Positions 2,617 to 24,593 of a stretch of DNA of 36,759 bases are shown in pieces (within the stretch, counting starts at the first letter, position 1; each line of letters begins with the position of its first letter). Both the position numbers and the translations under genes were made by a program. The notes beneath the pieces are model-generated. The model was not told the origin of the DNA. It ran no database searches and worked only from the letters and a program-made list of their open reading frames with translations. This DNA is from Herbidospora galbida (GTDB lineage: Bacteria; Actinomycetota; Actinomycetes; Streptosporangiales; Streptosporangiaceae): positions 1-36,759 of the forward strand of contig NZ_SZQA01000056.1 in NCBI RefSeq assembly GCF_005233835.1, in the 5' to 3' direction.

Positions 2617-2647
2617 ATCGGCTTTCGCGTGATCCTGTTTGTGCAGG

Positions 2648-3876: not shown

Positions 3877-3991
3877 GCCGCCCGGCTCCCCCGCTCTGGT
3901 CGACCTGTTACGCGCTTTCCTTTCGGTCATCGCCGCCTTCGCTGAGCTGCGCCTGGCGATGGCCCGAAGCCACCGGCGAAGGCCCTCGTAA
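3877..3991 (+). repeat. Dispersed repeat copy A (about 115 bp), coding-like tail
   Basis: This is one of three diverged copies; the others are at about 15452-15545 and 24003-24130. Read on the + strand to the TAA at 3989-3991 it gives ALVDLLRAFLSVIAAFAELR then a basic tail, A-R-S-H-R-R-R-P-S. The copy starts at the IS256 boundary. The bases left of the element (about 2564-2588) look like the upstream continuation seen in copy C, so the IS may have split it. No start codon is clear. It is either the 3' end of a small gene or a non-coding repeat. Confidence 0.5.
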
Positions 3992-4658: not shown

Positions 4659-5036
4659 CTGTGGCGGCGACGCTCGACGGTCCGGCCGGCGGTTACTTCC
4701 GCGCATGTGGCCCATGGGTCGCCGGACAGGACCGCCCTGGCTGGCCGACCAAATCGACCACGCCCTGGACCAGGGCGTGCTGCGGGCCGGTGCTGATCGC
4801 CCCAGAGATCTCAGCGTTCGACGACCTGGTCGCCCGACGACGCCCAAGCCCGGCTGGATCGCGCTCTTGGTCTGTGAGCCCCCGCCCCTGTGCAGGAGCC
4901 CCAGCACCGTCACAGGGCCGTGGCCTTGTCGCTTTTCCGGCCGGAGCCTGGTGCCAGATGTGCCGAGTTCACGAGGAAGGCACACCGAGCCGACGCTGAC
5001 GTCCAAGAGGAAGACCACGTCGACACCTGCCAGTTT
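4659..5036 (+). other. 378 bp without a recognisable gene
   Basis: Open frames exist on both strands (+ at 4655-4999 and 4705-5040; - at 4653-5018), but none shows a family motif or consistent composition along its length. I interpret this as decayed accessory DNA. Confidence 0.4.
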
Positions 5037-5618: not shown

Positions 5619-5647
5619 GATCACTCAACCTCGATTTCGGTGAGAAC

Positions 5648-5674
5648 GGGCGGCCCCCAGGTGAGGGGCCGCCC
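5648..5674 (-). terminator. Strong stem-loop between the nuclease gene and DUF6461
   Basis: Perfect 10-bp arms, GGGCGGCCCC and GGGGCCGCCC, enclose a 7-base loop. It sits 17 bp after the TAA of the upstream gene and about 30 bp before the DUF6461 start. No T-tract follows on the minus strand, so it may be an attenuator or an RNA-stability element rather than a full terminator. Confidence 0.5.
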
Positions 5675-5690
5675 GGACGTTAATCAGAAC

Positions 5691-8600: not shown

Positions 8601-10688
8601 GGGTGTGGTCTCCAAGACCGTCGGCGGCGCCGTGTCCGGTGCGCCGGTGGTGAAACTCCAGGTATGCGGCGCGGCCATGGGGTTGCCCTGGAGGTCTTTG
8701 GCCCCCGAGACGGTCGCGGTATAGACGGTGTCACCGAGGAGGTTCTGCGCGGGGGTGAAGACGACCAGGCCTTCATCGTCCATCACCTGCTCCCCGAGGA
8801 CCTCGCCACCGTCTGGGGCGGTGAGCGTGAGGCGTGTGTCCGTCACCGACTCGGTGAACTGCGCGACCACCCGGGCGTCGACCGGCACCCCGGTGGCGTC
8901 CGCGACAGGGTCGGTCGAGCCGACCGCCGGTGGCGACGAGTCATCCTCAGGCGTGGGGATGGCAGACTCCGTGGGCCACGGTGCAGGCTCCGGCTCCTGA
9001 GTGAGGTCCTCGTCCGGCAACGGTTGCAGGGCGTCACTCTCGACGTCGTACGGGTCGTCGAGAGCGCTGGCCGCGTTCACCTCCTCGGTTGTCCGGCCGA
9101 CCACGCCCGGAACGTCCTCGTAGCCGGTGATCTGGTTGGCCAGCGCCTCCTCGTAGGTGGGCATGTGATCCAGCATCTTGTTGGAACCCATCCACACGCT
9201 CACGTAGTTGGTCACCGGAGGCACGTACTCGATGAACAGCACGGGGGCGTGGTCAGGGACTGTGCGATCCCAGGCACCGCCCTCCTTGGAGCGGTACTGG
9301 CGCCAGTTGATGGTCGCCGTCTCCGAGGCGCCCATGAGCACCAGGCCGTGATCGGGCTCGCCGTCCGCCCAGCCCTGCACGATCGACTCGATGGAGTACC
9401 AGAGTTCGGCGCCACCCGGGCAGCCGGCCGTGTCGCTGTAGGCGCCCTTGTTGCCGACCTGCCCGCTGGTCGTCCACGACGGCTGGTTGTTCCAGGACAA
9501 CGTGCCGGCATCCCACGCGGAGGTCAGCTTACGAGCCACGATGCCGTTGCTAAGCTCCGAGCCGCAGTTCTTCGAATACTGGGCGGGATCGGCGCCGGAC
9601 CTGTAGTTCCAGATGATGAGATCGGCGTTCTGGATTGTGGCCCCGGCCAGCGGCTTGGAGACAATGTAACGCAGGTAGACGCGGGCGATGTCGGCGCTGG
9701 TCTTGGTGGTTCCGGCGCGCAGCCAGGTGTCCGTCAGATGGTTGTTGTACGGCTCGTTCTTGCTCACCCACGCGTCGTTCTCAAGCCCTGCCCCCACAAT
9801 CTCGCCAGCGGCGCTCATCGTCACCGGGTAAGTCAGGGACGGGTCGGCGAGGAACGCCGGATCGGGCTTCAGCACCAGGGTGGGCGTACCGTCCGCAGTC
9901 TCGACGCTGGTGTCCACCTTGGCGCTACGACCGCTGTCGGGGGCGCGCTCGGCCGCTGCGTCGACGGCGTGGACAACGATGTCGGTGGTTGCGGGGAGGC
10001 CGTCGCCCGCCAGCAACTGGGGTGCGCCGGTCTTGGCTTTGCCGTACTTCATGCCCCGGGGCACGGTGAGCGGGAGTTTGACGATCAGGGGCGCGGAAGG
10101 CCGTTCGCGGATCACCACGCTCTGGGTGAAGCCGTTGGCCTGCGCTGTGGCGACGAGATCGACGCCAGGTGCTACAGCGTTGGGGTAGGTCGCTCGGTCA
10201 CCCTCGACCAGGGGGCGGGGAAGACTCTTCCCCCAGCCGAATCCGCTGGTTCCGTGCACGCCGCTTGCTGATACGAGCGATCTGCCGCTGGCGCCGCCGA
10301 ATACGACTGGGAGCTTGGTCCGGGCAGCTCGCAGAGCGCCGCCCTCTTCGACGATCTTGGTGTCGATCGGCTGCCAAGAGCCGGTTTTCGGATCTTTCAG
10401 CTGAATCGGCCCGGGATGGACTTCAGCCTGGAGGGTTTTCCCGTCCGGCGAGGCCCACACCTTCATGGTCTCGGTGAACTGTTCGGGAACCTCCACGCGC
10501 TGCCTGGTCCGGCCCGCACGCTCCCAGGCGCTCTTGAGGGCCGGGTCGGAGGCGGCTGCTGGTGGGGATCCTGCGGATGTGAGCGAAGGTTCGGCGAACG
10601 CGGGCGCGACCGTCAGGGACACGGGTACAAATACGGCGAGAGCGGCCGCGATCAACCGTGGACGACGGAATCTTACTAATATGGGCAC
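5691..10688 (-). CDS. Secreted multidomain protein with C-terminal NucA/NucB-type DNase domain
   Basis: The protein has 1,665 residues and a GTG start. A signal peptide (residues 1-32: basic start, hydrophobic AALAVFVPVSLTV, then APAFA) indicates export. Order: N-terminal domain typical of actinobacterial RHS/DNRLRE proteins (about 60-290); DNRLRE-type beta domain (about 300-490); two Big_5-like Ig domains (about 585-785, each ending in W-[SN]-F-T-T); a Pro-Thr repeat; a second DNRLRE domain (about 808-1000); a second Pro-Thr linker; a third Big_5 domain (about 1015-1112); an FN3-like region (to about 1250); and a C-terminal effector region. The last 115 residues contain Q-C-D-E-Y-P-M-A-T-T-x-E-G-A and end I-L-D-G-D-P-F-W-V, matching NucA/NucB nucleases, whose C-D-E-Y-P-F motif holds catalytic acids. 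Likely role: extracellular DNase or polymorphic-toxin-like nuclease. Its target is unknown. Confidence 0.85.
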   Translation of the reverse strand: MPILVRFRRPRLIAAALAVFVPVSLTVAPAFAEPSLTSAGSPPAAASDPALKSAWERAGRTRQRVEVPEQFTETMKVWASPDGKTLQAEVHPGPIQLKDPKTGSWQPIDTKIVEEGGALRAARTKLPVVFGGASGRSLVSASGVHGTSGFGWGKSLPRPLVEGDRATYPNAVAPGVDLVATAQANGFTQSVVIRERPSAPLIVKLPLTVPRGMKYGKAKTGAPQLLAGDGLPATTDIVVHAVDAAAERAPDSGRSAKVDTSVETADGTPTLVLKPDPAFLADPSLTYPVTMSAAGEIVGAGLENDAWVSKNEPYNNHLTDTWLRAGTTKTSADIARVYLRYIVSKPLAGATIQNADLIIWNYRSGADPAQYSKNCGSELSNGIVARKLTSAWDAGTLSWNNQPSWTTSGQVGNKGAYSDTAGCPGGAELWYSIESIVQGWADGEPDHGLVLMGASETATINWRQYRSKEGGAWDRTVPDHAPVLFIEYVPPVTNYVSVWMGSNKMLDHMPTYEEALANQITGYEDVPGVVGRTTEEVNAASALDDPYDVESDALQPLPDEDLTQEPEPAPWPTESAIPTPEDDSSPPAVGSTDPVADATGVPVDARVVAQFTESVTDTRLTLTAPDGGEVLGEQVMDDEGLVVFTPAQNLLGDTVYTATVSGAKDLQGNPMAAPHTWSFTTGAPDTAPPTVLETTPARDATGVSAATPIAAVFSEPVFDAQVTVRSAAGEPVAGTSDTAEANTLTFTPAAPLAPETTFLVEIAGGKDFAGNVMTAHSWNFTTASATPEPTPTPTPTPTPTPTPPAEHTISLPLQADTWLDNQGTTGSGDEVLWAGVYGPSSLRTIERSYLTFNTSVLAGKTITDAKLRLRNAEDASYGCGNSQSGLKVQQVTSTWNIGSLRWSNQPSATTTGEAVAKDPSSCTNNNFPPSGVTWTWAVTDIVRAWASGQANNGLLLRSVNEAGTAPEYDRGFHSSEMSDDPDPQPPVLQVTYTDGGGGSTPTPTPTPTGGSDTTRPTIVKVEPADGASNVSSSARIKVTFSEPVTNVGFSLLDIFGESEVSGTATMSAGNTVLTFTPAWPLDFFYWATVEGARDAAGNTLAAPYEWSFMVGSMFLQGRAEADVAGLDDVAPTVDKAWTRTTKTGDIARTPTTTPDLMVKASDPLKRPATVQVEIGHDPTSPEQGKGLIWQGATQDVPAGSVAVVRVPRGKLFPGWKTRWRARSTAGGETGAWTGWQSLSVAPAEAQAKTMAAATTTAQFPYGYPDLQSGHPTTEWCEKEQFRLVPNRPNGAVGYTRPYFFCYSQWLMLPIYKETIDRSGKKTTTDVGLFQFSATNVIHTYVGYSGGTEAIPDHFGTPSNGTGPRDMKAWIKISQPLWMDTDGDIMTSPPNTTVKAVIPAAPSAGRPAGECQELNPKTDAARTRTIASWKTDPYEEFAFRSAGGADQDKTATCSLRPYIKVASDIAKFPINTVPLYQPEITPDVFCDTSPAIGRYKGGCRLKHARMIWTIKRTDPYIGQVTKHIWQAFYQPETTRPKVDNKVVPGNADLLPPRNAKPTDPRAFPLHRAARYKKGTLPPKYMDVPSKNENRKTTLCNLWWTAAERAGDTQCDEYPMATTHEGAAFAGDNVSVKPVARLHNRDHGIALNLFYERFRILDGDPFWVRVK
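7667..7693 (+). repeat. GGGGGT tandem repeat in a Pro-Thr linker, G-quadruplex-like
   Basis: Four runs of five G separated by single T bases lie on the + strand, the template strand of the nuclease gene. They encode the second Pro-Thr linker. The pattern satisfies a four-tract G-quadruplex motif. Hexamer units can also change copy number in frame. Confidence 0.6.
8280..8335 (+). repeat. GGAGTTGGCGTC-type tandem repeat coding the first Pro-Thr linker
   Basis: Degenerate hexamer/12-mer units (GGCGTC, GGAGTT, GGAGTG) encode alternating Pro-Thr residues between the second Ig-like domain and the second DNRLRE domain. The units are in frame, so length changes would alter only the linker. Confidence 0.6.
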
Positions 10689-10694
10689 TTACGT

Positions 10695-11207
10695 CTACAA
10701 TCGGGAGGCAAGCGGACAGAATGAGACATTTTTACTGGCAACATAACTAACATTCAAGTTCGTCCGAAATGTTCGCCTGCTCGTCCCTGCCTGTTGGCCT
10801 CCAGCACGCACCGCGCCCCCGCACCCCCAGTCGGTGACGCGGCGTTCGGTGGCGTCGTGGGTGGTGTGCGCGGTGCTGATCTCCTGATGGTGCTGGCGGC
10901 GGAACGCCAGGGTCAGGGTGATGCCCGCGCCCACGGCCGCGCCGGCGGCCAGGGCGGTGCGCAGCATCTCACCGCGGGCACCACCTGCCACAGGTTGCCC
11001 CGCCGGAGCGGGAATCGAAGGTGCTTGAGCGGCCAGATCGGCCAGTAGCCACCACAGGGTGCCACCCACCGCGCCGCCGACCAGGAGCACCGCGAGGGTG
11101 ATCCACCAGGCCGCCGCACGCGCAGTCCGCAGTACAGGTGGTGGAACAGCCGCGGGAACAGCAGAAGCCCGAGAAGCGCGACGGCCAAATGGGCGCGGTA
11201 ACGGCAT
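10695..11207 (-). pseudogene. Truncated N-terminus of a pentapeptide-repeat membrane protein
   Basis: From the ATG at 11207 the frame gives two hydrophobic segments (WWITLAVLLVGGAVGGTLWW and TALAAGAAVGAGITLTLAF). Then comes F-R-R-Q-H-H-Q-E, and then H-D-A-T-E-R-R-V-T-D. In actinobacterial pentapeptide-repeat proteins this lead-in continues into L-Y-x-K-A-V-E-Q-L-G-S and the repeats. Here the homology stops at V-T-D (about 10836), and the rest (WGCGGAVRAGGQQ onward) is unrelated. No pentapeptide repeats remain. The end lies next to the promoter region of the nuclease gene, so a deletion or insertion joined the two. Confidence 0.65.
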
Positions 11208-11845
11208 GGCTCCATTTCAGCCGTCCGCCCGGCTGTGTGGGGTCGTCGTCACCGGACCGTCCTCATACCGCGAGCTCATAACAGAGCGCCGGTCGCGAGG
11301 CTGGTTCGCTATGCCGCGATCCGAAAGTCGGCCGCGGCGAAGAGGGCATCAGGTCCTCGCAGCGTGGCGGCGCCGACCCGTGGCCGCGGCGGCGAAGGCC
11401 TTCGGACCCATTCGCGAGCACGGGCGTAGCAGGCCGGACTCATGAAGACGTCACTGTCCAGGCCCGCAGGAGCGGGCTACGCTATCAACTACCTCAGCGC
11501 CGGTATCAACTGGCTATCAGATGCAGTTGCGCGCTATCAGGTAGACCGCTCCCAGACAACTTGTCTGGCGCCGCCAAAGATGACAGTGGCCGACGCTGTG
11601 ACCTGCACATTGTCAGATGGCACTCCGTAGCCACAGGCTGGGTGCGTCATCGAGACATTGGCACTAGCAAATGATCTTGCTCGGCAACGCCCAGGACTCC
11701 CCACGTTGCGCCCTCAGAGCTTCCCGACGAGCCGCTTGCTCTTCATACGAGGACGAGGCGGCCACCGCTTCCCTCCCACGTTTGGTTACGATCGCCCACC
11801 GCAAACCGATAGACCCACAGGCGTGCCGTCACGGCGAGACGCCCG
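11208..11845 (+). other. 638 bp without a clear gene, holding a motif array
   Basis: No ORF here looks coding. From 11470 to 11670 the sequence is unusually AT-rich and repetitive. CTATCA or GTATCA occurs at about 11481, 11502, 11513 and 11534; TGACAG at 11581; TGTCAG at 11611. A 17-bp palindrome, CCAGACAACTTGTCTGG, lies at 11552-11568. The array lies 180-375 bp upstream of the NACHT gene and may be its control region or a relic of a replication or recombination site. Confidence 0.45.
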
Positions 11846-14800
11846 ATGGGCTCCAGAGCGGACGTGAACAGCAGGACGGACAGCGGGAGTGGGCGGGTGA
11901 GCCGACCAGACGGGGTCGAGTCGTCGTTGCCGCCGCCCGGCTCCGAGGCCGCGACCGACCGGCAGATCGCGGCCGCCCAGGACGGTGCGCGCCGTTGGAT
12001 CCGTGACGCTGCGGCGCGGGGTGTGGCGTGGGCGAGCCCGCGGGCGATGCTGGTCGGGCTGTCCGCCAGTGCGCTGCTCCCGATCGCGGTCGCCGAGCCG
12101 GGTCTGGTGGCAGTGGTGGCCGGGCTGAACGTGGCGGGCTCGCTCGGAGCCAACGTGCTGGCCACCTTGATCAGCGACTCCCTGGATGCCGCCCGCACCC
12201 GCACCCGCAGACGCCCCTCGACCGGCACTGCCCCGGCAGGGCCCGGAACCGAGACCGGCCCCGATGGCGCCACCGAGCCGGAGACGGCTGACCGCGCGAG
12301 TGATACGGCCTTCGCCGAGCAGGTGCGCATCGAGCTCGCCGAGCGGTTCGAGCGGGTGCTGGCTGCCCAGAATCAGCAGGCCGAGGCACTGGCCGTTACG
12401 CTGGCGCTGATCCTGGAACGGGTCGACGCGACCGCCGTGGTGATCGGTGAGGTCGTCTCCGCCGGTCAGCATGAGCTCCTGCGCGAATTGATGGCAGGGT
12501 TCGCCGGGCTCGGCGGCCAGGTGGCGGGGCTGGGCCCGCTCATGCACGACCTGGAACACGCGGTCACGCAGGTCCGGCAGAGCCTTGCGCGGCAGGAGGC
12601 TCGGCATCGCTCTGGTCGCGCCGAGCAGCAGATGATGCTCGAGCTGCTGCTGGAGTCCCGCCGGCAACTGGCTCAGTTGGTCGATCGGCTGCCTGAAACG
12701 GAACCCCATGCGGGACCATCCCCGGACCGCGGTCCCGTGGGCGGGCCGTGGCAAGCGGTCAATGATCCGCCGCGGCTGCGCGCCTATCTCGACGTTGCGA
12801 TTCGCGCGGCTGCTGAGCATCCCTTTCCCGGCGTCGTCCCCGGGTCCGGCCGTCCGCCGCTCGCGGAGGTCTACATCCGGCAGCGGGCGCGGGCGTCGGG
12901 CGAGTTCGGGTCGCGGCTGCCCGCCGAGGAGATCTTCGACCAGGACGGCGATTGCCTGCTGGTCGGCGGTCCCGGCGCGGGAAAGTCGAGCCTGCTGCGC
13001 ACGGGGCTGGCCGACCTGGCGGCCAGGGACGGCGCGACCGCCATGCCCGTTTTGGTGTCCGCCGCCGACCTGGCCGGGACTGACCCGCTGCCGCGGGCGC
13101 TGGCCCGGTCGGTGGAGGCGGCGCTGGGACCGGCGGGGCTGACGGTCGAGATCGAGGCGGGCTTGTTCCGGCAGCCGCCGATGCTGGGCGTGCGGTGGCT
13201 GGTCCTCGTCGACGGCTTAGATGAGATCGCCGACCCGGCCGGGCGGCGTGCGGTCCTGGCGAAGATCGCCGGCGTGCGGGCGGCGGTTCCGGAGCCGCCG
13301 TACCGATTCCTTGTGGCCACGCGGCCGCTGCCGGAGGAGGAGCTCGCCGACTTCAGCGAAGGCCTGCGGTATGACCTGCTGCCCTTCGACCCCGGCCAAT
13401 TGTCGGCCTTCGCCCGGAGCTGGTTCGGTGTCCTGGGCGTACCCGACCCTGGGGACGCGGCTGTACGGTTCGCCGAGCGGGTGCAACGAGCGCCGCTACG
13501 CGAGCTGTCTCGCGTTCCGCTGATGGCCACCATGCTGTGCCAGCTGTACGCCCACAACCCCGACCGCCCAGCGCCCTCGGGGCTGTACGGCATCTACGAG
13601 GAGTTCGTGGCGCTGCTGCGCGACCGCCAATACACACCCGGTGCGGGCGGCGTGATGGAACAGCTGCGCACGGCCATGGACAGGTACGGCCCAGCCGCCG
13701 TGGACGCGGGGATGGCACTGCACCTGGAGCTGTTCGAGCTGCTCCCATGGCTGGCCTGGACCCGGCGCTCCGGCGGGGCACGCCCGGCGGCGGCCGCGCT
13801 GCTGGAGCGGGCGAACTCCGCGCGCCCCACCCACGTGCCGCCCGCCCGGTGGAGCGCCCTGGCCGAGGGCCTCCTTCGGCGGACCGGTGTCCTGGTCGAG
13901 GCGGGCGGTGACGTCGACTTCCTGCACCAGACGCTCGGCGACTACCTGACCGCCCGGCACCTGCGCGAGGACGCCGAACTCGCCGCCCAGGCCGTCCGGG
14001 ACCTGCCCAGGGCGCCGTTCCTCGACTCGATGACCGCCTTCGTGTGCGCGGCGCTGCATGGGCGCGAGGATGTGGAGCGCGCGCTGCTCCTGCTGGCCTC
14101 GGGCGCACGCTGGCCCATGGCGCGCTCACGGCTGCTCGGCGGCCCGGAGATCATCGCCGAGCTGGCCGCTCAAGGAATACCGCTGTCGGCGAAGGTCCGC
14201 AAGAAGGCGGGCAACCGGCTGGCCGCAGCGGCCGCCGATCGGAAGTCCACGCCGTTCAACCGGCGCTGGGCGGCCGAACAGCTGGCCGCGCTCGGTGACA
14301 TCCGCGCCGCCGAACTGCTAGCTGGGCAGCCCAGCCACAGGACGAACCACGGCACTGAGCGGGTGAACCTGGCGCGACGACTGGCCGAGCAGGGAGACCC
14401 ACGCGGCATGGACCTGCTGGCGGCGCTGGTTGCCGACACCTCACTGGCTGAGACCCAAGATCGGATCTTGGCGGCCCGGCACCTCGTCGAACTCGGCGAC
14501 CCGCGCGCGGGCGACGTCCTGGCCGCGCTGACCGCCGACCAAAACCTGAGCGACGCCGACCCATACGAGAGCGGACCGGACAACACACCCGAGGGAACCT
14601 TCCGTCTCCAGGCGGCGACAACCCTGATCAAATTCGACCGGCTGCGCGGAATCGACACGCTGATGTCACTGGCCGAGTCCACCGACCCGGACGACACGGT
14701 ACGGGTGGCGGCGGCGCGCGCCGTCGTCACCGCCGGAGACCCGCGAGGCGCTCAGGTCCTGGTGGCCATGGCCGACGGCACCGCCCCGTACTCCGGATGG

Positions 14801-15415
14801 GGGACAAACGAGGGATTGCGACTTGCGGCGGCCACGGCGTTGATGGAGCTTGGAGACGAGCGTGCCGCCGGCCTCCTGGGCGCGCTCGCCCTCGGGCCGA
14901 GCCACGACCCGAGCATGCGCGTCCCCGCCGCCGCCTTACTGACCCGGCTGGGCGATGTCCGCGGCACGGCGGTGACGGCCGCCCTGGCCGTCGACGAGCG
15001 GGTGCCGGCCTATCTCCGTATTCGGGCGGCGAATGACCTTGTGAGCATCGCAGACCCCCGCGGCGAGACGGCGCTCACCGCCATGGCCGCCGATGAGCGG
15101 CTCAGCTGGGACGACCGCATCCCCGCGGCGCAGGCATTAGCCGATTCGGGTGAGGCCGCAGGCCGCGACCTTCTGGCCGGCTTCGCCACCGATCCGGCGA
15201 CCGACGCGCTTCACCGCCGACGGGCCGCCCGAGTCCTGATGACACACGGCGACGATCGGGGACAGGAAGCGTTGCAGGCCATGGCCGCCGACCCGCTGCT
15301 GGCCAACGAGCAGCGCGTAGCGGCAGCCAGAGACATCAGGGCGGCCACCCGGGAGACAACCCGAGGACACCCGCGCCGGGGCAGGTATCGGCCCCGGCCG
15401 CCCGACCGCAGGTGA
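11846..15415 (+). CDS. STAND NTPase: two-helix N-module, NACHT, HEAT repeats
   Basis: The protein has up to 1,189 residues. ATG 11846 opens the frame, but GTG 11897, 7 bases after GGGAG, is a good alternative and skips a low-complexity start. Residues about 66-115 form a Gly/Ala-rich hydrophobic hairpin (GLSASALLPIAV to GANVLATLISDSLD). Residues about 155-280 are helical or coiled-coil. The NACHT domain has Walker A GGPGAGKSS (374-382) and Walker B L-V-L-V-D-G-L-D-E (452-460), followed by winged-helix-like D-F-L-H-Q-T-L-G-D-Y-L-T-A-R. From about 800 onward are HEAT-type repeats of 30-40 residues (L-x-x-L-G-D-x-R-A-x-x-L-L-A-A-L). Likely role: an NLR-like conflict sensor in which HEAT repeats recognise a trigger, NACHT oligomerises and the membrane-like module acts. 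The N-module is homologous to that of the WD40 gene at 19473. The reading frame is intact. Confidence 0.85.
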   Translation: MGSRADVNSRTDSGSGRVSRPDGVESSLPPPGSEAATDRQIAAAQDGARRWIRDAAARGVAWASPRAMLVGLSASALLPIAVAEPGLVAVVAGLNVAGSLGANVLATLISDSLDAARTRTRRRPSTGTAPAGPGTETGPDGATEPETADRASDTAFAEQVRIELAERFERVLAAQNQQAEALAVTLALILERVDATAVVIGEVVSAGQHELLRELMAGFAGLGGQVAGLGPLMHDLEHAVTQVRQSLARQEARHRSGRAEQQMMLELLLESRRQLAQLVDRLPETEPHAGPSPDRGPVGGPWQAVNDPPRLRAYLDVAIRAAAEHPFPGVVPGSGRPPLAEVYIRQRARASGEFGSRLPAEEIFDQDGDCLLVGGPGAGKSSLLRTGLADLAARDGATAMPVLVSAADLAGTDPLPRALARSVEAALGPAGLTVEIEAGLFRQPPMLGVRWLVLVDGLDEIADPAGRRAVLAKIAGVRAAVPEPPYRFLVATRPLPEEELADFSEGLRYDLLPFDPGQLSAFARSWFGVLGVPDPGDAAVRFAERVQRAPLRELSRVPLMATMLCQLYAHNPDRPAPSGLYGIYEEFVALLRDRQYTPGAGGVMEQLRTAMDRYGPAAVDAGMALHLELFELLPWLAWTRRSGGARPAAAALLERANSARPTHVPPARWSALAEGLLRRTGVLVEAGGDVDFLHQTLGDYLTARHLREDAELAAQAVRDLPRAPFLDSMTAFVCAALHGREDVERALLLLASGARWPMARSRLLGGPEIIAELAAQGIPLSAKVRKKAGNRLAAAAADRKSTPFNRRWAAEQLAALGDIRAAELLAGQPSHRTNHGTERVNLARRLAEQGDPRGMDLLAALVADTSLAETQDRILAARHLVELGDPRAGDVLAALTADQNLSDADPYESGPDNTPEGTFRLQAATTLIKFDRLRGIDTLMSLAESTDPDDTVRVAAARAVVTAGDPRGAQVLVAMADGTAPYSGWGTNEGLRLAAATALMELGDERAAGLLGALALGPSHDPSMRVPAAALLTRLGDVRGTAVTAALAVDERVPAYLRIRAANDLVSIADPRGETALTAMAADERLSWDDRIPAAQALADSGEAAGRDLLAGFATDPATDALHRRRAARVLMTHGDDRGQEALQAMAADPLLANEQRVAAARDIRAATRETTRGHPRRGRYRPRPPDRR

Positions 15416-15451
15416 CGGCACAGAGATCCCACGCTGAGGCAGGTACACCGG

Positions 15452-15545
15452 CCGGTGCCCCTACTGCGCGCCTTCCTCCCCGTCATCGCCGCCTTGCCGA
15501 GCTGCTCGGCGACGGCTGGCGGCCGTCGGCGAAGGCTCCCGTAAC
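15452..15545 (+). repeat. Dispersed repeat copy B
   Basis: It begins about 35 bp after the NACHT-HEAT stop codon. CTACTGCGCGCCTTCCTCCC and the following bases align with copy A (CTGTTACGCGCTTTCCTTTC) and both end in GGCGAAGGC..CGTAAC. A one-base loss near 15515 relative to A breaks the coding-like frame: LLRAFLPVIAAL then changes frame. Confidence 0.5.
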
Positions 15546-15587
15546 GTTCGGTACGGCTGGGCGGCGAACAACGCTTCACACCACTCC

Positions 15588-15607
15588 CGACCTCGGCAAC
15601 GAGGTCG
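15588..15607 (-). terminator. Stem-loop downstream of the NB-ARC/TPR gene
   Basis: An 8-bp perfect stem, CGACCTCG and CGAGGTCG with a 4-base loop, lies 25 bp after the TGA at 15632. No T-tract is present. Its placement between convergent genes fits a terminator. Confidence 0.45.
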
Positions 15608-15631
15608 CTATCAGGCACGGAGCCTCCCAAG

Positions 15632-18079
15632 TCAGGGAAGAATCCGCTGTTCGCGTGGCGTCCCAAGCCGTTGGAAGAGAGCCTGTGCTTCTTCGAAAAA
15701 TGCGTCCGCTCCCGGCTGCCGGGTTGTCTGCCGCACCCGGCCCAAGAGGCGCAATGTCTCGGCCTGGCCGACGGGGTTGGGCAGTTGCCGGCAGATCGTG
15801 AGTGCCTGGGTGAGCAGGTCGGCGGCGATCTGGTGCTCGCCCAAGAGGTGTCGGTCGTGGCCGAGTTCGGTCAGCGCACTGGCCCGGCCAGCGGGATGGT
15901 CGATGGACCGGTAGGCGGTCAAGGCGCGTTCGTGTAGTCGCAGGGCGGTGTCGAGGTCGCCTGCGTTGCGGTGCAGGCGGCCGAGGTCGCGGTCGCAGTC
16001 GGCTTCGCCGAGGCGGTCGTAGATGCTTCGGTAGAGGTCGCGGGCGCGTTCGTGGAGGTGGGCGGCGGCCTGTCCGGTTGCCTCCCGGACGCGTCCGAGG
16101 ACGTTGAGCGCGTTGGCCTGGGCTAAGCGTTGGCCGGTGGTCTCGGCTTGGGAAAGTGCGTGGTGCAGCAGGTCCTCCGCTGCGTGGTAGTCGCCGGTCC
16201 GGTAGCGGACTCGGGCCAGCTCCCAGCTCAGGGCGGCTGCCCGGCTGCGCTCGCCCAGGTCCGCGTAGCGGTTGCGAGCTTGTTCCCATCGTTGGGCCGC
16301 TGCCGGATATCGGCCGGTCAGATACAGGATGTTGCCGAGCTGGTAGTGCGCTGCGGCCATTCCCTGGTGGTCTCCCGAGCCACGCAGCATCGTCAAGGCC
16401 GCTTCGAGGAGTTTCCCGGCGCGGCGGTACTCTCCGGTCATCTGGAGCGCACCACAGCACGCGACCAGCGCCTTGGCCTCGCGCAGCGGGTCGCCGAGCT
16501 CCCGGGAGATCGCGGCGACCCGTTCATGAACGGCGGCCGACGCCCGGTAGTCACACGCGAAGTAGCGAGCCAGACCCAGTTCGGTCAGGGCGTTGGCCAT
16601 GCCCGGCCGGTCTCCGTGCCGCTCGTACAGCCGCCGGGCCTCTTCCAGCAGGACGGTGGCGGGGTGGTAGTCGCCGAGCCGCCGTCGCATGCGGGCGAGG
16701 TCGACGGATGCATTCGCACGTTCCCGGTCATCGGTGGCGGCGCTCACGGCGTGCTGATGAAGGATGGCGGCCTGCCGCCAGAGCCCATCCAACGCCAAGA
16801 ACGCGGCGAGCGCGGCCGACAGAGCGGTCACCCGCTCGGCCAGTGAGTGCTTGATGGCGTACTCAGCGCAGGCCAGCAGGTTGCCACGCTCGGTCCGCAG
16901 CCAGGCCAGCGCCGCGGCACGGGCGGCGGGGTCGCTGCCTGGGCCGACGGTCAGATGCCGGTCGGCGGCTTGCGTGCCGCGCTGGTAGTGGTCGAGCAGC
17001 CGGGCGATGGCCTCGCCGGTTTCGGCGGTGGTGGCGCGGGAGCGCGCGTAGGCGCGGGTCAGGTCGTGCAGGCGATAGCGGCCCGGTACGGGTTCCTCGA
17101 CGAGGTGCTCCACATAGAGGGCGGCGAGTTCCCGCTCGGCCTGGCCGGACGTGATCCCGGCCAGAGCGGCGGCGGCGCTCGGGTCGATGTCGGCGCCAGG
17201 GTGCAGGCCCAGTAGGCGGAACAGTCGCCGCCGTGGGGCTGGCAGGTTCCGGTAGGACAGATCGAAGGCGGCGGCCACCGCGCGATCTCCGGCGGCGAGC
17301 CGGTCGAGCTGGTCGACGGCCGCGGTGAAGTGTTCGGCGTACCGGGTGATGGACCAGGCGGGCTGGTGGGCGAGGCGGCCCGCCAGCAGTCCGATGGCCA
17401 GCGGCAGGTGGCCGCAGCGGGCCACCAGGTCGGCGACGGCCGCCGGCTCGGCGTGTCCCGGGGCGCGTCGGCTCAACCGGAGGAACAGTTCGCCGGCCTG
17501 GCCGGGGGGGAGCGGGTCGAGAGTCAGCGGTTCGGCGCCGTCGAAGGCGAGCAGCCGTCGGCGGCTCGTGATCAGGACCAGACAGTGGCCGTCGCCGGGG
17601 ATCAGCGGTTCGATCTGGGCCTGGCCGTCGGCATCGTCCAGGACCAGCAGCACGCGCCTGCCCGCCAGCCGGTCCCGCCACGCGCGGGCCCGGGCGTCCA
17701 GGCCGGCTGGGATCTCCTCTGGTGCCAGACCGGCCGAGATGAGGAGGTCGGAGAGGATCTCGCCTGGTTCGGCGGGGGGCGTGCCGGGGAGGTGGGCGTG
17801 CAGGCGGATGAAGAGTTGCCCGTCGGGGAAGGCATCGGAGAGCAGGTGCGCGGCGTGGGTGACCAGGGCGGTCTTGCCGACGCCGGGCATGCCGTCGATG
17901 GCGCGGACGGCGGCGGTTCCCGTGAGCAGGCGACGGAGTTCGTCGTCACGGCCGGTGAAGGCGGCCACGTCGCGGGGCAGGCCATGGCGGACCGGAGCCG
18001 CCGGACGGCCGACGTACAGGTCGCGGGCGGCGATGTGGACCTGGGCCTGGTCCTGGGCACGGGCGTGGACGTCGGTCAT
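15632..18079 (-). CDS. NB-ARC STAND ATPase with C-terminal TPR repeats
   Basis: The protein has 815 residues, starting at ATG 18079, which overlaps the upstream gene's TGA (ATGA). The frame is open further upstream, but that part is a shadow of the 117-residue gene. A short lead, Q-V-H-I-A-A-R-D-L-Y-V, precedes the ATPase. F-T-G-R-D-D-E-L begins the NB-ARC domain, with Walker A GMPGVGKTA (63-71), Walker B V-L-L-V-L-D-D-A (143-150), L-V-L-I-T-S-R-R (about 167-174), C-G-H-L-P-L-A-I (GxP motif) and L-H-D-L in the MHD position. From about 430 to 800 it is tetratricopeptide repeats (e.g. A-N-A-L-T-E-L-G-L-A-R-Y). It resembles AfsR-type regulators without a DNA-binding SARP domain, so a signalling or defence switch is more likely than direct transcription control. 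No effector domain is visible. Confidence 0.85.
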   Translation of the reverse strand: MTDVHARAQDQAQVHIAARDLYVGRPAAPVRHGLPRDVAAFTGRDDELRRLLTGTAAVRAIDGMPGVGKTALVTHAAHLLSDAFPDGQLFIRLHAHLPGTPPAEPGEILSDLLISAGLAPEEIPAGLDARARAWRDRLAGRRVLLVLDDADGQAQIEPLIPGDGHCLVLITSRRRLLAFDGAEPLTLDPLPPGQAGELFLRLSRRAPGHAEPAAVADLVARCGHLPLAIGLLAGRLAHQPAWSITRYAEHFTAAVDQLDRLAAGDRAVAAAFDLSYRNLPAPRRRLFRLLGLHPGADIDPSAAAALAGITSGQAERELAALYVEHLVEEPVPGRYRLHDLTRAYARSRATTAETGEAIARLLDHYQRGTQAADRHLTVGPGSDPAARAAALAWLRTERGNLLACAEYAIKHSLAERVTALSAALAAFLALDGLWRQAAILHQHAVSAATDDRERANASVDLARMRRRLGDYHPATVLLEEARRLYERHGDRPGMANALTELGLARYFACDYRASAAVHERVAAISRELGDPLREAKALVACCGALQMTGEYRRAGKLLEAALTMLRGSGDHQGMAAAHYQLGNILYLTGRYPAAAQRWEQARNRYADLGERSRAAALSWELARVRYRTGDYHAAEDLLHHALSQAETTGQRLAQANALNVLGRVREATGQAAAHLHERARDLYRSIYDRLGEADCDRDLGRLHRNAGDLDTALRLHERALTAYRSIDHPAGRASALTELGHDRHLLGEHQIAADLLTQALTICRQLPNPVGQAETLRLLGRVRQTTRQPGADAFFEEAQALFQRLGTPREQRILP

Positions 18080-18429
18080 TGGCCGGTGACGTGCATGTCC
18101 CGTCCCGCGATGAACTGGCGTGCGTCGTCCCGGGCGGTGGCGTTGATGACGACCGGCCGTTCCAGCAGCCGGATCAGGTCCGCGGGGTCGTCCACGAGCG
18201 GTTCCAGCCGCAGCGCCCATTCGCGGCACAGGGCACTCTCGGCCGCCGTGTCCCCTCGCTCGCGGGCCAGCAGCAGCCGAGCCCGCGCCTCGTCCAGTTC
18301 ATCCGGTAGGCCTTCGGCGCGCCGTGTTCTTCTCGCCCAGTCGGCCATCGCGGCTCGAGTGTGCTGCCAGGCATCGGTGGCCATCGCTCCGACCAGAGCC
18401 GTCGCGGCCGCGAGCATGATCGGATCCAC
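18076..18429 (-). CDS. Small partner protein of the NB-ARC/TPR ATPase
   Basis: The protein has 117 residues. It starts at GTG 18429 after GAGGGGGATGAC, a strong Shine-Dalgarno region. A short hydrophobic N-terminus (MDPIMLAAATALVGAMATDA-W) leads into a charged helical body, then L-I-R-L-L-E, and the end Q-F-I-A-G-R-D-M-H-V-T. Proteins of this layout, with an A-T-A-L-V-G-A-M-x-T-D-A-W start and an A-G-R-D-x-x-[IV] end, are common next to actinobacterial NB-ARC/TPR genes. It overlaps that gene by 4 bp, so the two are translationally coupled and probably form one system. The biochemical role is unknown; membrane tethering or adaptor is inference. Confidence 0.75.
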   Translation of the reverse strand: MDPIMLAAATALVGAMATDAWQHTRAAMADWARRTRRAEGLPDELDEARARLLLARERGDTAAESALCREWALRLEPLVDDPADLIRLLERPVVINATARDDARQFIAGRDMHVTGQ

Positions 18430-18541
18430 GTCATCCCCCTCACCTCAGATCTCACTGAATGCTGTCAGTTGATCGCATGGCGTAGAGGCGGAATGCCTCG
18501 CTTGTGACGGCGCCGAGATCTCGGTGATCGACAATCGGCGC
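18430..18541. promoter_or_regulatory. Divergent intergenic region with a palindrome
   Basis: Between the minus-strand NB-ARC operon and the plus-strand secreted protein lie a perfect 12-bp palindrome, CCGAGATCTCGG (18513-18524), and an inverted repeat GAGGC/GCCTC (18485-18499). The palindrome is 18 bp upstream of the ATG at 18542, so a bound repressor could control one or both genes. No clear -10 or -35 pair was found. Confidence 0.35.
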
Positions 18542-19303
18542 ATGGTCGCACTGAAGATCGCGGTGGCGGCGTCGTTACTCCTCTCGGCGTCGCCGGTCGA
18601 AGCGGATCCGTACTTCGGCGACGTCAGGCAGGCGGTCCTGCGCCATTCCGCCGGGAACGGCGGCGTGCACTTCTCGACGAGGACGCGCGAGAGGATGTAC
18701 GACATCCTGAGCACGGAGACCAGCGCGGGCGCCTTCCGGTTCAATCGCTCGGGAATCGCCCGCTCCGACGTCACCTACATCGGCGACGACGGATTCGGGA
18801 CGTCGCGCGTCCGCATCGTCACGATCGGGCGGCGGAGCTACACGCGCGCCACCTCGCTCTCGAGGAAACCACTCTCCGCGAAATGGAAGGACTTCGGCAC
18901 TTACGGCGGCGGCTTCCACTACGCGGCCGACGTCATCAGCGGCGTCAACCCGGCCTTCCTCGACCTGATCGAGCCGGACGCCTCCGCGGGCGTGCCCGGC
19001 GGCGAGATGGACGGAGTGCCGACGACTCTGTACACGGGCTTCGTTGACGTGCCGGGTTTCGCGACCACACTGGCCGGCGTGCGGTTCAGTCTCGACCCTG
19101 ATTCGGTCGGCGGGCGCGTCACCTGGCGTCTGTGGGCCGGTCCCGACGACCTGCCGCGGCGGTTCACCGCCTCGATCATCTGGGACCTGGCCGGAATCAA
19201 GGAATCCAACGAGACCGTAAACCTGACCACCTTCTACAAGCGCTGGGACACCCGGGTGGAGATCAAGGCCCCACCCGGGAAGTTCGTGGTCAAGGCCTGG
19301 TGA
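18542..19303 (+). CDS. Secreted LppX/LprG-like protein
   Basis: The protein has 253 residues from ATG 18542; an in-frame GTG at 18524 is possible. MVALKIAVAASLLLSASPVEA is a plausible signal peptide, cleaved before D-P-Y. There is no lipobox Cys, unlike mycobacterial LppX/LprAFG. The body alternates beta strands and ends in W-D-T-R-V-E-I-K-A-P-P, which resembles the W-G-x-P-V-x-[IV]-x-A-P-P ending of LppX_LprAFG/LolA-like proteins. These bind lipids or lipophilic molecules in a half-barrel. A role at the cell surface is likely; its ligand is unknown. It sits between two STAND loci, and whether it belongs to them functionally cannot be told. Confidence 0.6.
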   Translation: MVALKIAVAASLLLSASPVEADPYFGDVRQAVLRHSAGNGGVHFSTRTRERMYDILSTETSAGAFRFNRSGIARSDVTYIGDDGFGTSRVRIVTIGRRSYTRATSLSRKPLSAKWKDFGTYGGGFHYAADVISGVNPAFLDLIEPDASAGVPGGEMDGVPTTLYTGFVDVPGFATTLAGVRFSLDPDSVGGRVTWRLWAGPDDLPRRFTASIIWDLAGIKESNETVNLTTFYKRWDTRVEIKAPPGKFVVKAW

Positions 19304-19415
19304 CCAATGACCACTCGCCGGACGGGAGGTCGAAGGTGTCGGTAGCGGGCCGGCCCCGCCACCACCTCTGAGTGGGATATCGGTCGCGACTGGCTCGTAA
19401 CGGGTGCGGGGCGGC

Positions 19416-19429
19416 CGGGGATATCCCCG
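19416..19429. promoter_or_regulatory. Perfect 14-bp palindrome upstream of the STAND-WD40 gene
   Basis: CGGGGATATCCCCG lies 43 bp upstream of the ATG at 19473. Its symmetry and position suit an operator. The GGATATC core also occurs at 19375-19381. No regulator is identified. Confidence 0.4.
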
Positions 19430-19472
19430 TAGTGCGTTGTTGTGTTCGCCGACCCCGGGCGGGGATGTCGCG

Positions 19473-22400
19473 ATGACTTCGACTCCCGGTTCCCGGGATG
19501 GGAGCAAGGACGCCGATTTCGGCGGTCTCGCCTTGCCTGCCGGTGTCGCCGAGCAGATGCGCCGGGGAGTTCAAGGGTGGGTGCACTTCGGCGCCCACCA
19601 GTTACAACTGGGCGCCGACGGGGTTCGGCTGACCGCTCACCAGGTGCGTCGTGGTGCGGCTCAAGCTGCTCGCGCTACTCCGGTTGTGGTGCTGGCCGGG
19701 CTGAGCGCCGCCGCGTTGGCGCCGGTGGCGTTGGCCGCCGCCGGGGTGACCCTAGTCGGTGCGGCCGAGGTGGGAGTGGGCGCGCTGGCCGGGCTGGGCA
19801 CCAACATCCTGAGCGAGATGATCGTTCGTGGCGTCGACCGCTGGCGTGGCGCCACCGGCGATCTTCCCTCCGTGGAGGAGGTCGAGCGAGAGCTTGCCGC
19901 TGGCATCGAGAAGGTGCTGGAGCGCGGCGATGAACAAGCCGTCCAGCTCCGCGAGGAGATCGCCGCAGTGCTGGCGCGGGCCGGGGCGGCCGAGGCCGCC
20001 CTCACCCAGGCGCTGGAACTCGGCGAGCAGCGGCTGTACGCCTACCTGATCACAGCGTTCGCCGAGGTGGAGCAGGATTTCGCCGAGTTCGCCTTCCTGC
20101 TGACCGGCCTGGAGGACGCGGCGGTAGACATCCAGCGGACGCTGCGGCATCAGGACGCCGAGCACCGTCGCCTTTCGGCGCAGATGACGATCATCCGCGA
20201 CGAGGTGACCGCCATCCGCGCTCAGACCCGGCCCCGCCGCGGCAAGAACACCGCGAACGCCGGCAAGGCCTCTCCCCGCTGGATCGGCGAGTGCCCGTAT
20301 CCGGGACTGGTGACCTTCAACGAGGACGACAGCGAGATCTTCCACGGCCGGGGCGCGGCCAGCGCGAAGCTGACCGCGACGCTGGCCGAACGCCTCGACG
20401 GGCCAGGCATGCTGGTGGTCACCGGCCCCTCCGGCGCCGGCAAGTCCTCGCTACTGCGCGCCGGACTGCTCCACCGGGTAGCTCGCGGCCTGATGCCCGG
20501 GGTGCCTGAGGCGGCGCACTGGCCGCGGCTGGTCATGACCCCGACCGCCGACCCGCTGACGGAACTGGCGGTCCATCTGGCCGCCATAGCCGGCCTGGAT
20601 GCGGCGGAACTGGCCGACACGCTGGCCACCGACCCGGACTGCGCCCCGCTCGTGATGCGCCAGGCAGTGATCCGGCATCTGTCCGAACACGGCCGCAGCG
20701 TGCAGCAACCGGAACGGGCCCGGCTGGTCGTGGTGGTCGACCAGTTCGAAGAGATCTTCACGCTGCGCGCCAACACCACCGGACCCCTGTACCCAGACCA
20801 ACCAGGCGGTACAGCCACAGGCGGGGATGGCGACGAACGCCGGGAGGCGTTCATGTCAGTGCTGCACGCCGCCGCACACACCCCCGCAGGCCCCGACGGC
20901 TCGCCCGCCGGGCTGGTCGTGCTGGGTGTGCGCGGCGATTTCTGGGATCGCTGCGCCGCCTATCCGCAGTTGCAGGACGCCCTAGAGGCAGGGCCTTTCA
21001 CCATCCGGCCGATGGAGGAGCCGCAGTTGCGCCAGGCCATCACCGGCCCCGCCCGCGCCGCGGGCCTGCATCTGGAGGGCGGGCTGGCCGAGCTGATCCT
21101 GGACGAACTGCGCGCACACGGACCTATGGTCGCCGGTACTGCCCCGCAGATAGAAGAAGGGGTGCTGCCGCTCCTAGCCCAGGCGATGCGCGCGGCATGG
21201 GAGAAACGCGAAGGCGATCGCCTGACCCGGCACGGCTACGACGACGGCGGCGGCATCGCCCACGCTGTCCAGATCAGTGCCGAAGCCGTCTACGCCGGAC
21301 TCACCTCGGCCCAGCGCGGCCTCGCCCGGCAGGTGATGCAGCGGATGACGGTGGTCCTGCCGGACGGTCAGTGCGTGCGCCGCCCGGTGACCCGCGACGA
21401 ACTGCACGCCAGCCTGGCTCCTGAGCAGGTGCTCCAGGTCGACGCGTTGGTTGAGGCCTTTATCCAGCGGCGGCTGATGGTGAGCGGCGAAGGCACCGCA
21501 GGGCTCGCTCACGACGTGCTGCTGACCGCCTGGCCACGCCTGCGGACCTGGCTCGCCGAGGACCAGGCCGACCGGATCATGCATAGCCAGGTCCTCCAGG
21601 ACGCCGACAAGTGGGGCCTGCACGGTCGCGACCCCTCCTTCCTCTACCGGGGATCTCGCCTGGAGGATGCGCAGAGCGCGGCCGAACGCTGGAGGGCCGA
21701 TCCCGGCCGCTACCCGCACTGGCCACATCCGATGCCGTCGACGCCTTCCTGACTGCCAGCGCGCATGCTGCCGCCCGATCCCGACGTCGCTGGCAGGCGG
21801 CGGTCGGGCTGCTGGCCGGACTGCTGGTGATCGCGATCATCACCGCAGTGGCCGCAGTTCGCTTTGGCCACGACGCCGACCAGCAGCGTGCTGAAGTACT
21901 CAGCCGCAGCGCTCAAGCCTGGTCTCGACAAGCGGCCGCCTACAGCCAAGACGTCCCGGAGGACCCTGCCACCTCGGCACGACTGGCCGCCGCTGCCTAT
22001 GCGCTCTTCCCGACCAGTGAAGCCTCGGCAAGCATTACCTCCCTGCTGACCAGATCTCCACGGGCAGTCCTAACGGGCCACACCGACAGGGTGTTCTCGG
22101 TGGCGTTCTCCCCCGACGGCACCCGCCTGGCCAGCAGCAGCGCCGACAAGACGGTGCGGATCTGGGATACACGCACCGCCACCCCCATCGGCAAACCTCT
22201 CACCGGCCACGAGGGCAGCGTGTCATCGGTGGCGTTCTCGCCCGACGGCACCCGCCTGGCCAGCAGCAGCGCCGACAAGACGGTGCGGATCTGGGATGCG
22301 CGCACCGGCGCCCCGATCGGCGCGCCCCTCACCGGCCACACCGACAGCGTGTGGTCGGTGGCGTTCTCCCCCGATGGCACCCGCCTGGCCAGCAGCAGTG

Positions 22401-23964
22401 ACGACGAGACGGTGCGATTGTGGGATCCGGATACCGGCACCCCCATCGGCACGCCCCTCACCGGCCACACCGACAGCGTGTCATCGGTGGGCTTCTCGCC
22501 CGATGGCACCCGCCTGGCCAGCGGCAGCCTCGACGAGACGGTGCGATTGTGGGATCCGGATACCGGCACCCCCATCGGCACGCCCCTCACCGGCCACACC
22601 GACAGCGTGTGGTCGGTGGCGTTCTCCCCCGATGGCACCCGCCTGGCCAGCGGCAGTGACGACGAGACGGTGCGATTGTGGGATCCGGACATCGGCACCC
22701 CCATCGGCACGCCCCTCACCGGCCACGAGGGCAGCGTGCTCTCGGTGGCGTTCTCCCCGAACAGCACTCGCCTGGCCAGCAGCGACCTCGACGAGACGGT
22801 GCGATTGTGAGATCCGGACATCGGCACCCCCATCGGCACACCCATCACCGTCAGCACCGGCAACCTATGGTCGGTGGCGTTCGCACCGGACGGCACCCGC
22901 CTGGCCGGCGGCAGCACCGACAAGACGGTGCGGCTGTGGGATGCGCGCACCGGCACCCTCATCGTTAAAACCGGCCATGAGGGCAGCGTGACCTCAGTGG
23001 CGTTCTCGCCCGACGGCACCCGCCTGGCCAGCAGCAGCGCCGACAAGACGGTGCGGATCTGGGATGCGCGCACCGGCACCCTCATCAGTGAACCCCTAAC
23101 CGGCCACGAGGGCAGCGTCACCTCGGTGACGTTCTCCCCCGATGGCACACGCCTGGCCACCAGCAGCACCGACAACACGGTGCGGATCTGGGATGCGCGC
23201 ACCGGCCCCCCATCGGCGCACCCCTCACCGGCCACACCGACAGCGTGTTCTCGGTGGCGTTCTCGCCCGACGGCACCCGCCTGGCCAGCAGCAGCGCCGA
23301 CGAGACGGTGCGGATCTGGGATATACACACCGGCGCCCCCATCGGCGCACCCCTCACCGGCCACGAGGGCAGCGTGTCATCAGTGGCGTTCTCCCCCGAT
23401 GGCACACGCCTGGCCAGCGGCAGCACCGACGAGACGGTGCGATTGTGGAACCCGGACACCGGCACCCCCATCGGCGCACCCCTCACCGGCCACACCGACA
23501 GCGTGTTCTCGGTGGCGTTCTCCCCCGATGGCACCCGCCTGGCCACTGGCAGTGACGACGAGACGGTGCGATTGTGGGATCCGCGCACCGGCACCCCCAT
23601 CGGCAAACCCCTCACCGGCCACGAGGGCTTCGTGTCCTCGGTGGCGTTCTCCCCGGACGGCACTCGCCTGGCCAGCAGCGGCGATGACAAGACGGTGCGG
23701 ATCTGGGATCCGCGCACCGGCACCCCCATCGACACACCTTTCACCGGCCACGCTGACATCGTGTGGTCGGTGGCGTTCTCCCCGGACGGCACTCGCCTGG
23801 CCAGCAGCGGCTACGACGAAACGTTGCGGATCTGGGACGTCGCGCTCCCGTACGATCTTCCTGCCGCCGTGTGCGTCATTGCGGTCCGTGGATTCACCCC
23901 ACAGGAATGGCGGCAGTACATGCCCGACGTGCCCTACCGGCCCACCTGTCCTGCATCTCGATAG
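19473..23964 (+). pseudogene. STAND NTPase: two-helix N-module, nSTAND1, TM helix, 14 WD40 repeats; disrupted frame
   Basis: ATG 19473 follows GGGGA. Residues about 72-122 form the hydrophobic hairpin (GLSAAALAPVAL to G-L-G-T-N-I-L-S-E-M), and about 135-250 a helical region. CPYPGLVTFNEDDSEIFHGR (274-293) is the nSTAND1 hallmark. Walker A GPSGAGKSS (318-326) and Walker B L-V-V-V-V-D-Q-F-E-E (418-427) follow. After the ATPase a TM helix ([19 protein letters not shown], about 21800-21860) precedes the WD40 array. Three lesions exist: a 1-base loss near 21716 (the first frame ends at 21752), TGG changed to TGA at 22808-22810 inside repeat 6, and a 1-base loss in repeat 9 (about 23205). Restored, the product would be about 1,497 residues. 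It is a pseudogene, a recently inactivated allele, or carries assembly errors in a repetitive gene. Confidence 0.8.
22061..23845 (+). repeat. 14 tandem 129-bp WD40 units, nearly identical
   Basis: The 43-residue unit is L-T-G-H[39 protein letters not shown]. Fourteen copies would build two seven-bladed propellers. Variation is concentrated in the three residues after T-G-H, the residue after V, and the positions before and after the Asp of the D-x-T-V-R block. Unit 7 is the most diverged (ITVSTGNLWSVAFAPDG) and is two residues short at its end. High DNA identity indicates recent amplification or gene conversion. Confidence 0.85.

Positions 23965-24516: not shown

Positions 24517-24593
<77 letters not shown>

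Follow-up and report, generated by a model that had tools for sequence, protein, structure and literature searches.

A shared N-terminal module of NLR-like STAND receptors in Herbidospora galbida and its family: a candidate membrane-acting head

Introduction

How two bacterial receptors with different ATPases and different sensor repeats come to carry a common N-terminal module, and what that module does for them, is the question raised by a stretch of DNA from Herbidospora galbida (Streptosporangiaceae; RefSeq assembly GCF_005233835.1, contig NZ_SZQA01000056.1, positions 1 to 36,759), referred to here, at its full length of 36,759 nucleotides, as the window. The accessible text of PMC10907252 describes a tripartite plan for such receptors, in which an N-terminal effector is followed by a STAND nucleoside triphosphatase (NTPase) and a variable sensor. 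Two genes of the window, A and B, have a comparable order of domains, and the answer developed below is that their N-terminal module behaves as an exchangeable unit. We give about an even chance to the proposal that it is a lineage-restricted, membrane-acting effector head, about 220 residues long, of single-gene NLR-like STAND receptors.

Two STAND genes with one N-terminal module

The features on which the argument relies are the following:

11846..15415, + strand: gene A, comprising the module, a NACHT-type NTPase and HEAT repeats; 1189 residues in an unbroken frame.
11954..12709, + strand: N-terminal module of gene A, residues about 37-288; from BLASTP, shuffles, profile search, tree and profile-profile comparison.
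12044..12172, + strand: hydrophobic hairpin of gene A, 43 residues (67-109), with zero Lys/Arg, one acidic residue and basic flanks.
11577..12769, + strand: upstream-plus-module DNA cassette, common to Herbidospora cretacea and Acrocarpospora catenulata.
12953..13426, + strand: NACHT-type NTPase of gene A, with the Walker B motif VLVDGLDE; Pfam NACHT under cut-off.
14282..15325, + strand: HEAT-repeat region of gene A, a putative sensor, from Pfam; outer limits approximate.
19404..21752, + strand: first open frame of gene B, comprising the module and an nSTAND1 NTPase; the start lies at or near 19404 and the gene goes on in another frame.
19539..20231, + strand: N-terminal module of gene B, residues about 46-276; from BLASTP, shuffles and profile search.
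19686..19823, + strand: hairpin of gene B, 46 residues (95-140), with zero Lys/Arg and two acidic residues.
20295..21635, + strand: nSTAND1 NTPase of gene B (PF20703, E 1e-100).
21797..21859, + strand: transmembrane-like hydrophobic segment of gene B, read by eye in the second frame; it separates the NTPase from the WD40 blades.
22069..23837, + strand: WD40 blades of gene B, 13.8 copies of a 129-bp unit (83% matches), interrupted by a stop at 22808-22810 and by a change of frame near 23.2 kb.

Both open reading frames lie where the preliminary description of this DNA had placed them, and both genes follow the NLR-like plan in having a central STAND P-loop NTPase and C-terminal repeats (HEAT in A; WD40, in the other frame, in B). 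For gene A, the Pfam models of NACHT (21.8 against a cut-off of 26.7 bits) and of nSTAND1 (22.3 against 27.1) both stay under their cut-offs. Its Walker B motif is nevertheless of the NACHT type, DQFEE being the commonest form in the nSTAND1 set (32 of the 39 members in which a search found the motif), and its relatives L182, L186 and L187, though not L179, pass the NACHT cut-off. The two ATPases, which had been called unrelated, do belong to different STAND clades but are not wholly unrelated, since 75 residues surrounding the P-loop, beyond the module, also align between A and B (E 3e-5).

BLASTP aligns the whole proteins with E 1e-10, and the aligned stretch reaches into the P-loop region; the modules alone still match (E 3e-7), which rules out a chance similarity stemming from the P-loop part. 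Their gapped local alignment scores 201, a value reached by none of 2000 full shuffles (mean 47, maximum 103, z 19.0) and by none of 2000 shuffles in blocks of 15 residues, which preserve local Ala/Gly content (mean 61, maximum 112, z 12.8). At the level of profiles, the A-type subset of seven sequences matches the other 34 over 221 columns with E 6.9e-37 and a probability of 99.9. A low-complexity Ala/Gly resemblance, the caveat attached to the similarity when it was first noticed, is excluded by the block shuffles, by conserved columns other than Ala and Gly (L43, N74, L76, L111, L121 and L161) and by the profile-profile match; judged by their sequences, the modules of A and B are homologous beyond composition. 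The similarity, originally reported for residues about 70-260 of A and 76-245 of B, is thus real, whereas its true extent is the wider one given in the list. Finally, all six pairs tested within the module family have a dN/dS of 0.19-0.41, so the module is maintained as a protein by purifying selection.

Distribution and fusion partners

In the genome scans, 7 or 14 candidates were scored per genome, and some of the scanned genomes had supplied rows of the profile and therefore match by construction. Among 200 sampled genomes of the family Streptosporangiaceae, module A matches 25 and module B 39. A 41-row profile matches 38 of 200 genomes of the order (32 at E 1e-20 or better, all Streptosporangiaceae), 20 of 394 of the class (E<=1e-20 in the own genome, in three more Streptosporangiaceae and in G553, from another family) and 6 of 396 of the phylum, where the match is strong in the own genome only. 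Scanning the contigs of named genomes with the A-type subset gave nine loci in Acrocarpospora, Microbispora, Sphaerisporangium and Herbidospora.

The module is present in 52 of 60 fetched regions, in 57 open frames that all reach E 3.4e-12 or better; the other eight, with weak first-look matches, fell under the profile threshold and were left out. With the pieces of two broken genes merged and the window genes added, these frames make 55 module genes. Pfam was run on 10 of them, and no Pfam family scores above cut-off in the module. Classified by the content of their open frames, 44 genes have an nSTAND1 NTPase, 36 of these with WD40 in the same frame; the rest consist of one NACHT-HEAT gene (gene A), one with another P-loop NTPase and repeats (L064; AAA_16 19.6 against a cut-off of 32.6 bits), one kinase-like fusion (L097, 6334-7869 on the minus strand; Pkinase 23.4 against 31.7 bits) and eight without an ATPase. 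The search with a module profile for reuse on several ATPase and sensor types, proposed at the outset, has therefore borne out the expectation for nSTAND1, for NACHT-HEAT and for the other P-loop/repeat combination. Twelve further regions yielded 11 with nSTAND1 and one remnant. An open frame of at least 1000 residues is found in 38 of the 55 genes; the remaining 17 comprise two truncated at contig ends, the kinase-like gene, and 14, not each inspected, that are remnants or whose frame stops ahead of or within the ATPase. Of the 32 genomes with a strong match, 21 have a single strong module copy, a count made on 14 candidates per genome, so that copies may be missed.

A few individual loci may be recorded here. 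By eye, the catalytic motifs of the kinase-like domain in L097 look degenerate. Two module-nSTAND1-WD40 genes of one genome (L119) stand divergently, head to head, at 4332-8450 (minus strand) and 8215-12411 (plus strand). Another contig of the own genome (L173) holds a module fragment without an ATPase, the remnant of a further copy. Long upstream open frames at L070 and L071, rich in Arg and Pro, were read by eye as non-coding and dismissed.

The place of the module in related receptors

On both ATPase classes, the module occupies a position in which relatives have known effector or signalling domains. For gene A, the NACHT part has matches in 36 of 150 genomes, and eight of 29 NACHT relatives were picked by eye for a Pfam scan of their N-termini. 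These carry Trypsin_2 (L179 and L182), Peptidase_C14 (L186), DUF4062 (L194) or NNH1 (L190), and the remaining three gave a helix-turn-helix (HTH) domain under cut-off, a transmembrane-protein family far under cut-off, and nothing. The closest relative of gene A, L179 (37% identity), has the order Trypsin_2, P-loop, HEAT, with NACHT at 19.8 against 26.7 bits.

The nSTAND1 part of gene B matches in 59 of 80 genomes, from which 30 loci were obtained; 13 of them have the module and one (L215) a fragment. Eight N-termini were scanned among the others. Peptidase_C14 scores above cut-off in all three picked as caspase-like (L229-L231) and HTH in all four picked as HTH (L218, L225, L227 and L232), while L235, where a cyclase-like head was suspected by eye, shows no head family in Pfam. 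The remaining loci comprise three that look HTH-like by eye, two without a recognisable head and three that are unreadable.

Exchange of the module between receptors

A maximum-likelihood tree was built from 41 of the 43 near-complete modules, all rows of which besides A, L064 and L097 are labelled nSTAND1. In this tree the modules of A and L064 are sisters (support 100/99) and fall, again with 100/99, within a seven-row clade together with five nSTAND1 modules. Between A, L064 and L066, module identity is 64-70%; the C-terminal parts of the three match one another by BLASTP no better than E 0.019.

The same pattern is visible in the DNA. The window matches L064, from A. catenulata, at 11748-12769 (79%) and H. 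cretacea at 11577-12702 (78%), and both matches begin upstream of the ATG at 11846 and end at the border between module and ATPase (12702-12769). Behind the H. cretacea cassette, which is broken, comes an ATPase that shares 78% identity with the L064 enzyme across 262 residues and is unlike that of gene A; one genus thus has the same head on two different engines. Taken together, the reuse on several ATPases, the tree, the cassette with its change of ATPase and the position in related receptors show the module to be an exchangeable N-terminal unit, one that has, on this comparative evidence, moved between receptors with different ATPases and sensors. As a separate observation, pieces of the stretch upstream of gene A (11400-11700) recur in H. 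cretacea (L131, in several places) and in L069, possibly as a short repeat.

Decay of gene B

Gene B is broken by a frame change near 21.7 kb, by a TGA at 22808-22810 that replaces a WD40 Trp, and by the second frame change near 23.2 kb, breaks for which an assembly error may be the source. Its second frame continues with a transmembrane-like helix and then the 13.8 WD40 blades, a propeller array that was recently amplified and is already decaying. In the available part of PMC9218822, disrupted STAND-type genes with recently amplified WD40 are described as turning over rapidly, and the 14 interrupted-looking genes or remnants among the 55 are in line with such turnover.

Anatomy and proposed action of the module

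The most distinctive part of the module is a hairpin at alignment columns 38-80, where Lys/Arg do not exceed a frequency of 0.02 in any column. These 43 columns are free of Lys/Arg in 40 of 41 members, compared with 56 of 8496 control 43-mers from the same proteins, transmembrane segments included. The mean net charge is +4.2 before the hairpin and +1.6 after it; a break containing Pro/Gly, near columns 50-57, splits the hairpin, and its second half is marked by G72 (100%), N74 (88%) and L76 (98%). This charge pattern, with the central break, agrees with a hairpin whose two ends lie in the cytoplasm. Amphipathic helices follow behind.

Two candidate relationships were discarded. PspA/IM30 reaches 14.2 and 11.1 bits in Pfam against a cut-off of 33.9 (E 0.034), and a sequence search of the PDB, with 74 sequences up to E 10 and the best 60 examined, is led by designed helical proteins and coiled coils (best E 4e-5, for a designed repeat protein), the rest being scattered; these hits were taken as matches of composition and not as homologues.

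Behind the NTPase, 35 of the 38 long open reading frames have a strong transmembrane segment before the WD40 region. The three without one in the searched range are gene A, L064 and the minus-strand gene of L119, the last of which has such a segment at 668-686, outside that range. Lys/Arg are more frequent on the N-terminal side of the segment in 35 of 35, which suggests that the NTPase lies inside the cell and that the WD40 of the nSTAND1 members may be outside it.

On these grounds we infer a sequence of events comprising membrane insertion, oligomerisation, membrane damage and defence. In this model, an amphipathic helix of basic character, an uncharged helical hairpin inserted in the membrane with its two ends in the cytoplasm, and long amphipathic helices leading to the NTPase would make up the module. 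Binding of a trigger by the repeat sensor, be it WD40, HEAT or another repeat, would cause the STAND NTPase to oligomerise; the hairpins would thereby be gathered, the membrane perturbed, and the infected cell stopped or killed. A bolder version is possible but rather doubtful: a membrane-perforating effector whose hairpin stands on a coiled-coil stalk and which spreads as the upstream-plus-module cassette to new bodies (nSTAND1-WD40, NACHT-HEAT or another P-loop/repeat protein); the nSTAND1-WD40 members would then be receptors with three transmembrane segments whose external WD40 signals inwards.

It is important to stress that a number of observations weigh against a membrane-acting effector. 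Some concern the hairpin itself: at least one Asp/Glu is present in 39 of 41 members, frequently close to where the second helix ends, and the mean Kyte-Doolittle values of 1.80 and 1.46 are moderate, such that the hairpin could pack in a helical bundle. A glycine zipper was considered and is not supported, GxxxG occurring 0.59 times per hairpin against 0.78 in shuffles, that is, without enrichment. AlphaFold models of both modules, computed from one shared nine-row alignment that excluded L131 for its broken frame, have a pLDDT of 48.9 each and a pTM of 0.23 and 0.26, a confidence too low for a fold; for what such models are worth, they are all-helical with a similar helix order. Of the two-helix membrane effector suggested initially, the membrane-like hairpin with its basic flanks has held, whereas the predicted structures are too weak to show fold or function. 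Other observations concern the surroundings. None of the 29 NACHT relatives of gene A has the module (six frames, 1.5-kb flanks), so the NACHT fusion is rare, and the HTH heads mean that the slot is not reserved for killers. No module match was obtained in phages and plasmids, both queried with one nSTAND1-type module, or in viral contigs, queried with the A-type alignment, and no PADLOC model matches the module. No partner gene recurs in the 4-kb flanks, where the families seen in five to seven loci correspond to WD40/STAND fragments or to frames antisense to these, and others reach three or four loci. Finally, as the nSTAND1-WD40 members already have a strong transmembrane segment, the hairpin may there be a mere anchor.

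Alternative explanations

That last point leads to an unlikely alternative, in which the module permanently anchors the receptor in the membrane and acts as a scaffold that helps the ring to form, with the output left to an unlinked partner or to the ring of NTPases. A hairpin trailed by amphipathic helices would suit this role, and the nSTAND1-WD40 members, with their further transmembrane segment and its invariable Lys/Arg bias, would be membrane proteins anyway. However, gene A and L064 lack any other such segment and relatives have peptidases or HTH domains in the same position, which argues that anchoring is no general need of these receptors; nor has a recurrent partner gene been found to supply the output.

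A homotypic adaptor, comparable to EAD or Death-like domains, might instead recruit a separate module-bearing effector or, as the preliminary description had it, link the two sensors of the window. The module is predicted to be helical and has no enzymatic feature, one kinase-like fusion exists, and helical adaptors are reported as common in bacterial STAND systems in the accessible parts of PMC7159879 and PMC8195603. We nevertheless regard an adaptor as quite improbable, because most strong-match genomes have a single strong copy, and no protease, nuclease or TIR fusion occurs among the 55 genes (with Pfam on the 10 mentioned). The link between the window's own sensors, in particular, is not supported, because of the single copies (21 of 32 genomes), the broken gene B and the lack of a recurrent neighbour, the sole non-STAND partner seen among the 55 genes, with the same Pfam coverage, being the one kinase-like domain.

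Least probable is a regulatory or structural N-terminal extension without an output of its own, such as an autoinhibitory coiled coil, or some other unforeseen role: the weak coiled-coil-type matches (PspA/IM30, designed helical proteins and coiled coils) would agree with it, but in the position of the module close relatives of the same ATPases have trypsin or caspase domains. The membrane-acting head remains the reading that we prefer.

Other features of the window

Between the two module genes, at 15632-18229 on the minus strand, lies a third STAND-type protein, an NB-ARC/TPR protein without the module, which has partial matches, under cut-offs, to the HaaT and AfsR models. A tRNA-Ala called by ARAGORN at 15487-15567 (plus strand), without Rfam support, overlaps a dispersed repeat (78% to 3911-3992), and a tRNA-Pro at 24517-24593 is supported by Rfam. 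Close to the left end of the window, the open reading frame of a Mutator-family transposase occupies 2574-3758 on the minus strand.

Comparison with known systems

The domain is new, and the kind of system is known. In the literature searched, which left most subscription papers aside and is no proof of the module being unpublished, no description of it was found. NLR-like STAND receptors such as Avs, bacterial NACHT and nSTAND1-WD40 proteins have the same central STAND NTPase, C-terminal repeat sensor and exchangeable N-terminus; the present group differs in an N-terminal unit without a Pfam or PADLOC match and in the transmembrane segment that precedes WD40 in the long nSTAND1 members. If the WD40 of these members does lie outside the cell, they would be STAND receptors that span the membrane, in contrast to NLRs, which are cytosolic.

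Kaur et al., who named nSTAND1, report that systems of this kind contain helical adaptors and effectors that vary, in the parts available of PMC8195603 and PMC7159879. EAD and Death-like adaptors (Kaur et al. 2020, 2021) resemble the module in being helical, non-enzymatic and tied to STAND NTPases; the module is larger and has a hydrophobic hairpin, and a second copy on an effector was not seen among the 55 genes, the Pfam run on 10 included, besides the kinase-like L097. NNH1 (NACHT N-terminal helical domain 1, PF22733) is likewise helical and takes the same position in the NACHT relative L190; it differs from the module, with an hhalign probability of 0.2% (three NNH1-type sequences, of which L190 alone is Pfam-confirmed), and gives no Pfam match in it. 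TRADD-N was not among the Pfam matches of the module, although the presence of a TRADD-N model in Pfam was not checked. For STAND genes of the WRAP type with recently amplified WD40, the accessible part of PMC9218822 reports disruption by frameshifts and stops, and their highly similar blades, about 14 in number, and disrupted genes recall gene B; these are two-gene, operon-like cyanobacterial systems with TIR or caspase heads, whereas here single genes carry the new module.

The nearest described functional analogue that was seen is BELL, the bacterial analogue of HeLo/HELL in actinobacterial and cyanobacterial NLR clusters, a hypothesised membrane-targeting cell-death domain (PMC7889193). 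Like the module, BELL is a helical domain with a hydrophobic, membrane-type segment. In the same source, however, it is encoded by a gene adjoining the NLR gene, both sharing the BASS amyloid motif, whereas the module is fused to its NTPase and has a two-helix hairpin; a separate adjacent effector gene in the BELL/BASS layout does not recur within 4 kb. Set beside these systems, the module adds an unlisted exchangeable head to the bacterial NLR-like receptors, shows at DNA resolution how a single genus combines one head with two different engines, and provides a candidate with which membrane output from a STAND receptor can be tested.

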